NCBI GenBank assembly: GCA_020073545.1
Contig: JAIQEZ010000021.1
Location: 1 to 49,181, forward strand
Origin: Terriglobia bacterium
GTDB taxonomy: Bacteria > Acidobacteriota > Terriglobia > UBA7540
Direction: 5' to 3'
Length of the DNA: 49,181 bases
The stretch's first letter is position 1. Each line of letters begins with the position of its first letter. The position numbers and the translations under genes are program-made. The notes beneath the pieces were generated by a model that worked only from the letters and a program-made list of their open reading frames with translations, was not told the origin of the DNA and made no database searches. Of this stretch, positions 1,268-4,805 are shown piece after piece.

Positions 1268-1780
1268 ATGTGCCCCGAGCTATCAGCCAGAATCCAGTAT
1301 GCGGGGCATGTCAGGGCGAGGATCAATACGTTCGCACGAGCGGCTTGCATCAAGGTAGAGCCTGGTTGCGAGGTAGAACTTACCAGGATTCTTGAGCAGG
1401 AAGTTATCCCGCGGTTTCGAAGAGAAAAGGATTTTCGGGGACTTCTGGCCTTCAGCCTCCCGGACGGGACGGAAGCGCTCTCCCTGAGCCTTTGGGATCA
1501 AAAGGAGAGATGGGGAGGCATCTGCGGTCGAAGCTTTGGCGCGCTGGGGGCTCTGGTGAGACTTCCCCTGGGGAAACAGCCCGTTCCCGTCTATGCGGTC
1601 TTGAACTCCGCATTCCACACCAGGGGACAAGCAACGGACCCCGGAGAGGTCGTTGAGGCGACTCCCGATCTCAAAATCTATGAGTCGGCGCTTCAGCCTT
1701 TCAAAGTGGCATCCGCACGGGCCGCGCGGGGCCGAGGTTTCCCGCTGATGCGGTGCCTCATCAATTCATTTCATACGTAA
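1268..1780 (+). CDS. ABM-like dimeric alpha/beta barrel protein, possibly degraded
   Basis: Residues ~22-75 (FARAACIKVEPG, then ILEQEVIPRFRREKDFRGLLAF and ALSLSLWDQKE) resemble the first half of a ferredoxin-like antibiotic-biosynthesis-monooxygenase (ABM) domain of the sort common as hypothetical proteins in acidobacteria. The expected second half is disturbed: a ...YAVLNSAFH-like segment is followed by VEATPDLKIYESALQPFKV, as if part had been rearranged. The domain would naturally begin one residue before FARAA, where the codon is ACG rather than ATG, so the annotated upstream ATG may not be the ancestral start. It could be a decaying gene. Function is not assignable beyond the fold. Confidence 0.5.
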   Translation: MCPELSARIQYAGHVRARINTFARAACIKVEPGCEVELTRILEQEVIPRFRREKDFRGLLAFSLPDGTEALSLSLWDQKERWGGICGRSFGALGALVRLPLGKQPVPVYAVLNSAFHTRGQATDPGEVVEATPDLKIYESALQPFKVASARAARGRGFPLMRCLINSFHT

Positions 1781-1840: not shown

Positions 1841-2554
1841 ATGAAAAGTATGAATCGCTTCAAAGTAGTGGGGATGATCTTTTGTTTATCCCTGGTGGCC
1901 CTGGCGATTGCGCCTAGGGCCAAGGCCGACGAGTGGAACAGGAAAACTGTTGTGACATTCGACGCGCCGGTCGAGGTTCCAGGTGTGGGCGCTCAGACCT
2001 TGCCGGCTGGTACGTATGTCTTCAAGATTCTTGATTCCCTCTCCGACCGACACATCGTTCAAATCTTCAACCAAGCTGAAGACCATGTCTATACAACCAT
2101 CCTCGCCATCCCCAATTACCGTTTGAAGCCGACTAGCAAAACGGTGATGACGTTTAAGGAGAGGGCGGAAGGACAGCCGGAAGCCATCCGGGCGTGGTTT
2201 TATCCGGGGCGTGAATGGGGCGAGGAGTTTGTATATCCAAAATTCAGGGCTGTTGAGCTGGCGAAGATAACAAATCAGCCCGTCCTCTCGACGCCTATCG
2301 AACTGGCAGCGGCGCCCATCGAGGCGTTGAAGACGGCGCCGGTTGAGGCCGTTAAACCCAGCGGAGAAGTGGTTCCAGTAGCTGCGGTGGTTGAGCTCCC
2401 GCCAGACGTAGCGAAGCCGGTAGAGGTAGCAGCTGTGACGCAAACCGAGCCCTTGCCCAAAACGGCCAGTTCACTGCCGCTTGTGGGATTATTTGGGATA
2501 CTGTCGTTGAGCGCAGGTGTTGTTCTTCTGGTTGTTTCCAAGCACGCCGCTTGA
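1841..2554 (+). CDS. Secreted protein with LPKTA C-terminal sorting signal, candidate sortase substrate
   Basis: This 237-residue protein begins with a signal peptide (MKSMNRF..., cleavage near APRAKA-DE, ~residue 29). An exported domain of about 110 residues follows (TFDAPVEVPG, TLPAGTYVFKI, VYTTILAIPNYR), of a type seen in many acidobacterial hypothetical proteins. Next comes a Val/Ala/Pro/Glu-rich linker (~150-203). The C-terminus has the three parts of a sortase signal: LPKTA at 205-209, a hydrophobic segment at ~212-232, and a short tail with one Lys and a His (SKHAA). A class D sortase lies 1.5 kb downstream on the same strand, so this is the best local substrate candidate. The LPXTA reading and the pairing are inferred. 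LPxTG-like anchors can also resemble PEP-CTERM-type tails. Confidence 0.75.
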   Translation: MKSMNRFKVVGMIFCLSLVALAIAPRAKADEWNRKTVVTFDAPVEVPGVGAQTLPAGTYVFKILDSLSDRHIVQIFNQAEDHVYTTILAIPNYRLKPTSKTVMTFKERAEGQPEAIRAWFYPGREWGEEFVYPKFRAVELAKITNQPVLSTPIELAAAPIEALKTAPVEAVKPSGEVVPVAAVVELPPDVAKPVEVAAVTQTEPLPKTASSLPLVGLFGILSLSAGVVLLVVSKHAA

Positions 2555-2808
2555 GCCAGGAGCGTGTAAGCCTGCGTTGACCACCCACGTAGGGGGCCGC
2601 CTAAAGAGGACGCGTCGGGCGCCAATTTCCTGGCCCGGGCGAGCTGACCGAGCGGCAGGTTGTGAAGGGGCGGTACGCGAGTATCGCCCTCCCCTTCGTG
2701 GACGGTAGCGTCCAGAAGGGCCCGTGTTGCCGCCGGCCCTCCGGGCTTCCGCTCAGCGAGCACCACAGGACTGGCCCGGTGAGATGACCATCAACAGCGG
2801 TTCAGCCT

Positions 2809-2834
2809 GCAAGACCCGACACTCGGGGTCTTGC
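2809..2834 (+). terminator. Hairpin downstream of the LPKTA protein gene
   Basis: A perfect 9-bp inverted repeat (GCAAGACCC / GGGTCTTGC) with an 8-nt loop lies between the LPKTA gene and the next small gene. No U-tract follows, so termination strength is uncertain. Confidence 0.45.
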
Positions 2835-2878
2835 CCGCCCTGGCGACCGGACCTCCATGACCAGGATTGAGGATTGAA

Positions 2879-3076
2879 ATGTTCATTATCTATGAATATG
2901 CTGCCTGTGTGGGCGTGGCTGCGATCTGTGCGATGCTGCTCTGCGCGGCCTACGTGATGTCCCTCCTGCTCAAGCGCGGAGCCGGTAGCGTCGAACGAAC
3001 CCTACAAGAACTCACCCCGGGCGCCACTGGGCTGGTCGCCAGAAGCGGGATGACGAAGGGGCCTCGCGAGCCATGA
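2879..3076 (+). CDS. Small single-pass membrane protein, sortase locus
   Basis: This is a 65-residue protein with one long hydrophobic segment (~residues 6-30, ending in LLLKRG) and a short polar tail, so N-out/C-in is the likely topology. The ATG at 2879 is preferred over the in-frame TTG at 2867 because GAGG sits just 5' of the ATG. The gene ends 30 bp before the VWFA gene and probably shares its transcript. No family is recognised. Confidence 0.55.
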   Translation: MFIIYEYAACVGVAAICAMLLCAAYVMSLLLKRGAGSVERTLQELTPGATGLVARSGMTKGPREP

Positions 3077-3106
3077 GGACATCGGCCTGTCCAGGGGAGA
3101 TGGAAA

Positions 3107-4135
3107 TTGCACGCCGCGGAATTGTTCAGCCCAGATGTTAAGACCAAGGAAGGGCGCGTCACCACCCGCCGTTGCCTGGTCGGGCTCTTCTTTATGATGA
3201 TCCTGCCGGGCATTGCTCGCCCTCAACAACCAGACTCGCCGGCCGAGCGCCGCCCCTACACGATCGCCGTAAGTGTTGACAATGTTGTCTTGCCCGCGAC
3301 CGTGCAGAACCACAAGGGTATTCTTGTTTCCGGACTCGGCAAAGACGACTTTCAGGTTTACGAGGACGGACTTCTCCAACAAATTACATATTTTAGCCAC
3401 GAGGATATCCCGGTAACCGTCGGCTTGGTCGTCGACAACAGTGGAAGCATGCGACCGAAGCGCGCTGAGGTTATCGCCGCTGCCTTGGCGTTTGCCCGCT
3501 CCAGCAACCCGGCGGACCAGATGTTCGTGGTCAATTTCAACGAGCACGTTTCGTTTGGCCTTCCGCACAACACACCGTTCACCGACAAAGTTACTGAATT
3601 GGAGGTCGCGCTGTCCCACATTAAAGCGGACGGCGAGACGGCACTCTACGACGCTGTGGCGGCTGCACTCGAGCATTTGATGAAGGGTAATCGGGACAAG
3701 AAAGTGCTGATCGCGGTCAGCGATGGGGCCGATAACGCCAGCAAACATACTTTGGCCCAGATCATGGCCATGGCGGGGCGCCCCGACGCAATCATCTACA
3801 CTATAGGTCTCTTTGAGCAGGACGATCCCGACAAGAACCCCGGTGTGCTCAGGCAGCTTGCCAAGGCCACGGGTGGCGAGGCTTTCTTGCCGGAGTCATT
3901 AAAGGACGTTGCCCCTATTTGTGAACGAATCGCCCGTGATATCCGTAACCAGTACACCATCGCCTATGCACCCGCGAATAGAAAGCAAGACGGGACCTAT
4001 CGGCTCATACAAGTGAAGGCTGCGGCGCCGGGTCGTGGACGCTTGTTCGTCCGTACCCGTGCCGGTTACACCGCACCCTTGAAAACTCAACCATCCCCGG
4101 AGGCAAGTGCAACCTACAAGGACGTTCAGGATTAA
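3107..4135 (+). CDS. VWFA-domain protein of the Acidobacterial type (TIGR03436-like)
   Basis: This 342-residue exported protein starts at a TTG with GGGGAG upstream. An internal hydrophobic signal-like segment is at ~23-36. A short N-terminal beta region (VDNVVLPATVQN, DDFQVYEDG) precedes the von Willebrand A domain. The metal-ion-dependent adhesion motif DNSGS is at residues 110-114, with later MIDAS elements DGETALYD and SDGADN. The C-terminal part (RNQYTIAYAP, then a Tyr/Arg-rich strand ending RTRAGY) is the hallmark of the acidobacterial VWFA family. Its end overlaps the sortase gene by 29 bp, which implies translational coupling. It has no LPXTG-like tail, so it is more likely a partner of the sortase than its substrate. 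Confidence 0.9.
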   Translation: MHAAELFSPDVKTKEGRVTTRRCLVGLFFMMILPGIARPQQPDSPAERRPYTIAVSVDNVVLPATVQNHKGILVSGLGKDDFQVYEDGLLQQITYFSHEDIPVTVGLVVDNSGSMRPKRAEVIAAALAFARSSNPADQMFVVNFNEHVSFGLPHNTPFTDKVTELEVALSHIKADGETALYDAVAAALEHLMKGNRDKKVLIAVSDGADNASKHTLAQIMAMAGRPDAIIYTIGLFEQDDPDKNPGVLRQLAKATGGEAFLPESLKDVAPICERIARDIRNQYTIAYAPANRKQDGTYRLIQVKAAAPGRGRLFVRTRAGYTAPLKTQPSPEASATYKDVQD

Positions 4136-4805
4136 ACGCCAGAAGGTGTGGTTCCCACGGACTCCATCGTTGCTCCGTTGGAGCGGCTACCTCTTCTTTA
4201 TCATTGCCATCCTTGCGCTGAGTTACTGCGGCTTCGTGCAGCTCGACACGGGGCTCTATCAGGCGTACCAAACCTGGCGATTTGAACGAGCCTTGAAAGG
4301 TTCGAAGCCGGCTATAGGTAGCGTTGAACAGCTTCACCCGTCGCCCCTTCCAACAACCATGGCGGAAGCGAACCGCGCGAGAGCTGAGAGTCTTGGCACA
4401 GCCGGCCGCGGAGGCTCTCCGTTGGGGCGAATCGAGATCAGCACAATCGGCCTCACGGCGATGATCATGGAAGGCACGGACGGAAGGACTCTGCGACGGG
4501 CGGTTGGGCATATGCCGGGTACCGCGCTGCCGGGTCAGCCAGGGAACGTCGTAATCACGGGACATCGGGACACGTTCTTTAGGGGGCTGCGCAAGGTCGC
4601 TAAAAATGATGAGATTACCTTGACGACGTTAGATGGATCCTACCGCTATCGCGTGGACTCGACCGAAGTGGTCGGGCCCGAGAATACCGAAGTGTTGGAC
4701 AATTCCGATCACGCGGTTCTGACCCTCGTGACCTGTTATCCGTTCTATTTTGTGGGCCCGGCACCTAAGAGATTTATCGTCCGCGCGCACAGGATTCCTG
4801 AATGA
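4107..4805 (+). CDS. Class D sortase
   Basis: This cysteine transpeptidase would cleave an LPXT-type sorting signal and transfer the protein to an envelope acceptor. The 232-residue protein has an N-terminal membrane anchor (~25-45) and a sortase beta-barrel. The catalytic triad is visible: His153 in TGHRDTFFRG, Cys210 in TLVTCYPF and Arg222 in PKRFIVRA. The GHRDTFFRGL and TCYPFYFVGPAP signatures fit class D. Start is GTG 4107 with GGAGG just upstream, inside the end of the VWFA gene. Sortases are uncommon in Gram-negative bacteria, where a lone sortase usually has a single linked substrate; the protein at 1841-2554 is the obvious candidate here. Confidence 0.92.
   Translation: MQPTRTFRIKRQKVWFPRTPSLLRWSGYLFFIIAILALSYCGFVQLDTGLYQAYQTWRFERALKGSKPAIGSVEQLHPSPLPTTMAEANRARAESLGTAGRGGSPLGRIEISTIGLTAMIMEGTDGRTLRRAVGHMPGTALPGQPGNVVITGHRDTFFRGLRKVAKNDEITLTTLDGSYRYRVDSTEVVGPENTEVLDNSDHAVLTLVTCYPFYFVGPAPKRFIVRAHRIPE

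Follow-up and report, generated by a model that had tools for sequence, protein, structure and literature searches.

The window analysed here is one whole contig (C248) of 49,181 nucleotides, from a Terriglobia genome of 5.28 Mb in 261 contigs with an estimated completeness of 95.5%. On its forward strand lie, in this order, a gene for a protein with an LPKTA tail (1841–2554), a VWFA gene (3107–4135) and a sortase gene (4107–4805). We propose, with a probability of roughly 0.78, that they form a dedicated sorting cassette of diderm Acidobacteriota, in which the tagged protein would be exported by Sec, cleaved by the sortase and covalently linked to peptidoglycan. The proposal builds on what is directly seen: the gene content, the motif, the catalytic triad, the phylum-wide pairing of enzyme and tail and the presence of the tail on unrelated cargo.

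The cassette and its proteins

The features of the locus are as follows.

1268..1780, + strand: upstream gene, kept beside the cassette in near relatives only
1841..2554, + strand: LPKTA substrate gene, 237 amino acids, recognised from its reading frame, sequence features and orthologues
2453..2551, + strand: C-terminal sorting signal, LPKTA followed by SSLPLVGLFGILSLSAGVVLLVVSKHAA, profile E-value 3.8e-18 in its own genome
2879..3076, + strand: small open reading frame for a predicted 65-residue membrane protein between the substrate and VWFA genes, in near relatives only
3107..4135, + strand: VWFA protein (TIGR03436) with a signal-peptide-like start and a DNSGS MIDAS motif at 3434–3448
4107..4805, + strand: class-D-like sortase with one N-terminal hydrophobic segment (about 4170–4238) and the triad H153/C210/R222

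Purine-rich stretches resembling ribosome-binding sites precede the starts of the LPKTA, VWFA and sortase genes. The sortase reading frame begins with GTG behind CGGAGG and overlaps the VWFA gene by 29 nucleotides; its start lies about 1.55 kb from the stop of the LPKTA gene. The initial annotation had described just such an arrangement, with an intact His-Cys-Arg triad in a sortase overlapping a VWFA gene and, 1.5 kb upstream, a secreted protein ending in LPKTA, a hydrophobic segment and a basic end, and each of these elements is present. The 65-residue frame has counterparts with 37–63% identity in three related loci (tblastn), two of these being duplicated in the set. The gene at 1268–1780, for which a few related loci have counterparts 53–67% identical over the aligned part, is probably outside the mechanism. 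Towards the start of the window, positions 147–617 encode a Gly/Tyr-rich repeat protein (GYxxGFxxG); L011, L030 and L095 each have a counterpart close to their cassette, and L161, from another genome, encodes a GYDQGY-type repeat protein that itself ends in an LPRTA tail.

The LPKTA protein starts with a Sec-type signal peptide (amino acids 1–29, cleavage end AKA-DE), followed by a beta-rich domain of 119 residues (30–148) and a linker of 56 residues with a high content of Pro, Ala, Val and Glu. The LPKTA motif occupies residues 205–209 (nucleotides 2453–2467) and leads into a 28-residue hydrophobic segment ending in SKHAA, within which the predicted structure model places a helix at residues 212–236. 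All three parts of an LPXTG-type sorting signal (motif, hydrophobic helix and C-terminal basic end) can be recognised, the basic end being weak, with one Lys and one His; among relatives, some comparable tails score above the TIGR01167 or PF00746 cut-offs. A Pfam search with the LPKTA protein gave no family match. With its AlphaFold model (mean pLDDT 84, pTM 0.71) as query, all Foldseek matches stayed above an E-value of 0.001 (best 0.39) and all VIA-align 2 matches under a Z of 5 (best 3.6); such absent matches of a predicted model are no evidence of a new fold.

A tail profile was built from six tails, both tails of this genome among them. Searching the whole genome with it returned two proteins, with E-values of 1.9e-19 and 3.8e-18, and none beyond these, the next match being at 0.74; a profile run across other genomes behaves in the same way, and the window tail is far beyond chance. 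The tail consensus is LPxTASxLPLIxLxGLLSLG. Across orthologues, the Pro and Thr of LPxTA are invariant and Ala-Ser is kept in 90% or more; in an alignment of 44 substrates, only these two residues and one Gly of the tail are invariant. The motif, on whose conservation the initial annotation depended, is thus well preserved.

The sortase scores 112.8 bits with the Pfam Sortase model (PF04203, cut-off 26.6), which places it in the superfamily. Its triad consists of His153 (nucleotides 4563–4565), kept by all 110 acidobacterial relatives compared, and of Cys210 (4734–4736) and Arg222 (4770–4772), each kept by 109 of them. Class D models score highest: the LPxTATN-specific NF058671 is passed (142.4 bits, cut-off 140), but the general NF033746 is missed (131.4 bits, cut-off 165). 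Scores are lower for class GN (TIGR03784, 97.7 bits, cut-off 158.25), class C (89.9 bits, cut-off 160), class E (85.2) and class F (29.5). The class D label given at the outset therefore stands as the best match in sequence comparison and not as cut-off-level membership. The closest solved sequences are 2LN7 and 4D70; the best match is 2LN7, an LPXTG-site transpeptidase, with which the window sortase has the block TLxTCYPFxxxGxAPxR in common. Filing the signal as LPxTATN was ruled out by the cut-off of the LPxTATN C-terminal domain model (NF058670), with which the window partner, reading LPKTASS, scores 14.8 bits against 32.

The VWFA protein belongs to TIGR03436 (213 bits, cut-off 81) and contains a DxSxS motif (DNSGS). 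No sorting tail was found in it, and it scores 32.3 bits with TIGR03788, the model for VIT/VWA targets, far under the cut-off of 551.65.

Pairing of tail and sortase across Acidobacteriota

The second tail protein of the genome is a 43%-identical paralogue on contig C197, which carries the sole other PF04203 match of the genome; a VWFA gene again lies ahead of that sortase and overlaps it. The genome thus encodes two sortases and two tail proteins, one pair per locus on different contigs, and the cassette is therefore present twice. A list of the same-tail proteins in this genome, first suggested as a check, comes to exactly these two, each paired with a sortase. The second sortase (L010, 3476–4645) has a Pro/Ser-rich C-terminal extension of roughly 120 residues after the catalytic domain.

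Among 40 genomes of the order, six have the sortase and four the LPKTA protein, all four within the six and at the same locus. In one further sortase genome (G019, L013), an unrelated 161-residue reading frame with the same tail, ending in MPKTASPLPLIALLGLTSLGAGAAAHRLSKRYC, precedes the enzyme; the sixth (G016) has its sortase close to a contig end. A wider set of 80 sortase loci was collected from one-genome-per-species contigs of named genomes, every one of which bears a label such as Acidobacteria, Terriglobia, Bryobacterales or Solibacter. Only sortase patterns were used in the scan, which is therefore unbiased towards the substrate. A tail-bearing reading frame lies upstream on the same strand in 74 of the 80, and a VWFA homologue directly ahead of the sortase in 62. 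Five of the six loci lacking a tail-bearing frame (L056, L062, L074, L097 and L099) have less than 1 kb upstream of the match, while the substrate homologue of L051 has no tail and a long end rich in Cys and Pro. In L048, L066 and L071, no VWFA gene lies between the two, and the stop of the substrate gene overlaps the start of the sortase gene; this arrangement makes the substrate, not the VWFA gene, the more constant partner of the enzyme.

Across 396 genomes of the phylum, mostly metagenome assemblies, the sortase is present in 81 and the tail (E<1e-5) in 55. All 55 genomes with a strong tail have a sortase (Fisher p about 1e-47, a value that overstates the significance, since related species do not count as independent trials). 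More weight lies in the occurrence of the pairing in many families and with unrelated cargos. The co-occurrence in other acidobacterial genomes that the initial annotation had proposed to check is thereby confirmed, and a strong tail was never seen in a sortase-free genome, so the tail is not widespread without the enzyme. Some named loci and genomes come from the same organisms (L011 and L024 share sequence), and the 80-locus and 396-genome sets are thus not fully independent. Weak tail matches in seven sortase-free genomes (G079, G207, G232, G261, G334, G395 and G429) were judged to be chance; they have E-values of 3e-4 to 0.01, cover part of the profile and lie in open frames of 453–3114 residues. 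Of 71 tail loci, 58 lie within 5 kb of a sortase, and tail and sortase also co-occur when unlinked. The gene order is reversed in L140, L146 and L150, where the pair persists.

The tail and the cargo domain come apart. The domain (profile A5) is found in 48 of the 396 genomes, seven of them sortase-free; a tail match accompanies it at 42 of 58 loci in sortase genomes versus none of nine in sortase-free genomes, five of these nine having been read directly. Conversely, 39 of 81 tail loci (E<1e-3) have no A5 match. Unrelated cargos in the fetched loci include a DUF4142 protein, a PG_binding_1 protein, a PEGA-like protein and a GYxxGY-repeat protein, as well as repeats weakly like CusF/DUF5666 and very short Ser/Thr-rich proteins. 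Sorting systems have been defined by a tag that moves from protein to protein irrespective of their kinship but never occurs apart from one enzyme (PMC3237569); an LPxTA tail on unrelated cargo, absent where there is no sortase, fits that signature. Several observations count against a dedicated sorting role: the tail-less homologue beside the sortase in L051, a second one directly ahead of the enzyme in L172 (1861–3060; genome G415, which has the tagged protein on another contig), the 40 of 108 PF04203 loci in the phylum that have no A6-type tail within 5 kb, and the weak basic end of the window tail. One genome (G301) has five sortases (on C65, C110, C117, C157 and C197; loci L134, L138 and L156), four of them each beside their own tail protein and the fifth at a contig end, making it a good case for specificity studies.

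A second sortase system and related machineries

Twenty of the sortase loci with no A6-type tail nearby were inspected. In nine of them the partner is a TIGR03788-like VIT/VWA protein, which passes the curated cut-off in six cases; at several others there are tail-like ends of another kind, and at some no partner could be seen. In some of the TIGR03788-like partners an LPxTA or LPxTG tail is recognisable, and the three sortases tested from such loci all exceed the class GN cut-off. In a FastTree phylogeny of 129 sortase domains, the nine VIT/VWA-partner sortases and that of L197, the partner of which was not identified, form one clade (support 0.996) away from the window sortase. The tree, together with the curated cut-off, rules out filing the latter as class GN. 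The initial annotation had noted that the VWFA protein, unlike proteobacterial VIT/VWA targets, has no sorting signal; the clade shows that it was right to keep the two types apart, true VIT/VWA targets going with a different acidobacterial sortase. Two sortase systems are thus separated within one diderm phylum.

The window cassette resembles the "marine proteobacterial" two-gene system of class GN sortase and VIT/VWA target in having a dedicated sortase beside a single target, a diderm host and a VWA protein ahead of the sortase, but there the VWA protein itself has the LPXTG-type tail, whereas here the TIGR03436 protein is tail-less and a separate gene is tagged. Class D enzymes (Bacillus anthracis SrtC and Clostridium perfringens SrtD; NF033746 and NF058671) provide the best-scoring models, the closest structures and an LPxTA motif; the window sortase differs from them in its diderm host, a signal of the form LPxTAS(x)LPLIxL instead of LPxTATN, a score below the general cut-off and the VWFA gene in the cassette. 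The PEP-CTERM/exosortase and GlyGly-CTERM/rhombosortase systems share the tripartite C-terminal signal, co-distribution with one enzyme and adjacency where there is a single target (PMC3237569), but their enzymes are unrelated and the window has a true sortase. In a sister genome, L015 (515–1432) encodes a protein with a PEP-CTERM-like end (VPEPGTLSLLALGFSGIAFLRSKGRR), which hints that an exosortase system is present there in addition to the sortase. The attachment of Braun's lipoprotein and porins by L,D-transpeptidases (PMC8263019) leads to the outcome presumed here, covalent binding of a protein to diderm peptidoglycan, but uses another enzyme and joins a Lys side chain or an N-terminus, not a C-terminal Thr freed by loss of the tail. 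Six genes of Solibacter usitatus have been reported under "Sortase" (PMC3174227). Our search of open-access papers for acidobacterial sortases and for LPxTATN yielded no account of the system, a scope that leaves its novelty unproven.

Proposed mechanism and its alternatives

From the observations above, we infer a cleavage site, a transpeptidation step, an acceptor, a location and a role for the VWFA protein. The substrate would be exported by Sec via its signal peptide and held in the inner membrane by the hydrophobic tail, with LPKTA on the periplasmic side. There, the membrane-anchored sortase of the same locus would cleave between Thr208 and Ala209, forming an acyl-enzyme with Cys210. This site is the default expectation, given the sortase family and triad, the match to 2LN7 and a report that the class D sortase of B. 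anthracis (SrtC) cleaves LPNTA peptides (PMC3208642). The carboxyl group of Thr208 would then be transferred to an amine, for which meso-diaminopimelate on lipid II, with its free amino group, is the likeliest candidate. The MurE of this genome has a DNPR motif, the signature of meso-diaminopimelate ligases, so the meso-diaminopimelate amine of lipid II would be the natural nucleophile; judging from this one motif and from the way sortases generally act, meso-diaminopimelate peptidoglycan is the most likely acceptor. The result would be a beta-rich domain of about 120 residues, covalently tethered to peptidoglycan via a flexible linker of 56 residues. The VWFA protein may be a secreted accessory of the Terriglobia version of the cassette, probably binding the anchored protein or the sortase.

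The genome encodes LptD, consistent with an LPS-type outer membrane, and in such a diderm organism anchoring to peptidoglycan alone would not expose the protein at the surface. Of the original suggestion of a dedicated sortase for a surface protein, the dedicated pairing holds up, but "surface" goes further than the evidence, a peptidoglycan-linked periplasmic product being at least as likely. The same consideration lends some weight to a different fate, in which the sortase cleaves the tail and the product is either released or joined to an acceptor that is not peptidoglycan (a lipid of the outer membrane, say, or a polysaccharide or second protein), to be surface-exposed or extracellular; the unrelated exosortase and rhombosortase systems, with look-alike C-terminal signals and other fates in diderms (PMC3237569), offer precedents. 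We consider this unlikely, given a class-D-like enzyme with a normal triad, a meso-diaminopimelate nucleophile at hand and two scanned tail cargos (L158 and L163) with a peptidoglycan-binding domain, which fit a peptidoglycan address but do not prove it.

Polymerisation of the substrate into a covalent filament, with Lys134 of an FVYPK sequence as acceptor as in Gram-positive pilins, appears very improbable. FVYPK resembles the pilin motif VYPK and is found, exactly or as a close variant, in most tail-bearing orthologues (YPK there in 57 of 76), but it is absent from the second substrate of the same genome, is not common to other cargos with the same tail and is retained by the tail-less homologue in L172, while the sortase is far under the class C cut-off (89.9 versus 160 bits). 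The reading to which we give least credence is that the tail serves as membrane anchor only and the sortase is nearby through operon hitchhiking, without catalysis. Processing is here a prediction from the genes, and two substrate homologues beside sortases lack the tail; against this, tail and sortase occur together even when unlinked and with unrelated cargos, the pair survives changes of gene order, and the motif never varies in its Pro and Thr, a constraint that catalysis would impose and mere hydrophobicity would not. Cleavage followed by linkage to peptidoglycan remains our preferred reading. A more far-reaching version of it, possible but rather doubtful, is that the cassette builds a diderm envelope tether, a periplasmic beta-rich domain joined covalently by its flexible linker to meso-diaminopimelate peptidoglycan and touching the outer membrane or the VWFA protein; it would be the sortase counterpart of Braun's lipoprotein and would have spread through the Acidobacteriota while exchanging its cargo.

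Textbooks treat anchoring by sortases as a trait of Gram-positive bacteria. Here, enzyme and tag are found together across much of a diderm phylum, and in these soil Acidobacteria with an outer membrane the enzyme very probably cuts its tagged neighbour and attaches it covalently. The pairing is clean, occurs in about one in seven of the sampled Acidobacteriota genomes and combines exchangeable cargo with a defined consensus. It makes the question of the sortase acceptor in outer-membrane bacteria directly testable, in a phylum that has cultured members, and the consensus tail provides a motif for annotating uncharacterised secreted proteins.
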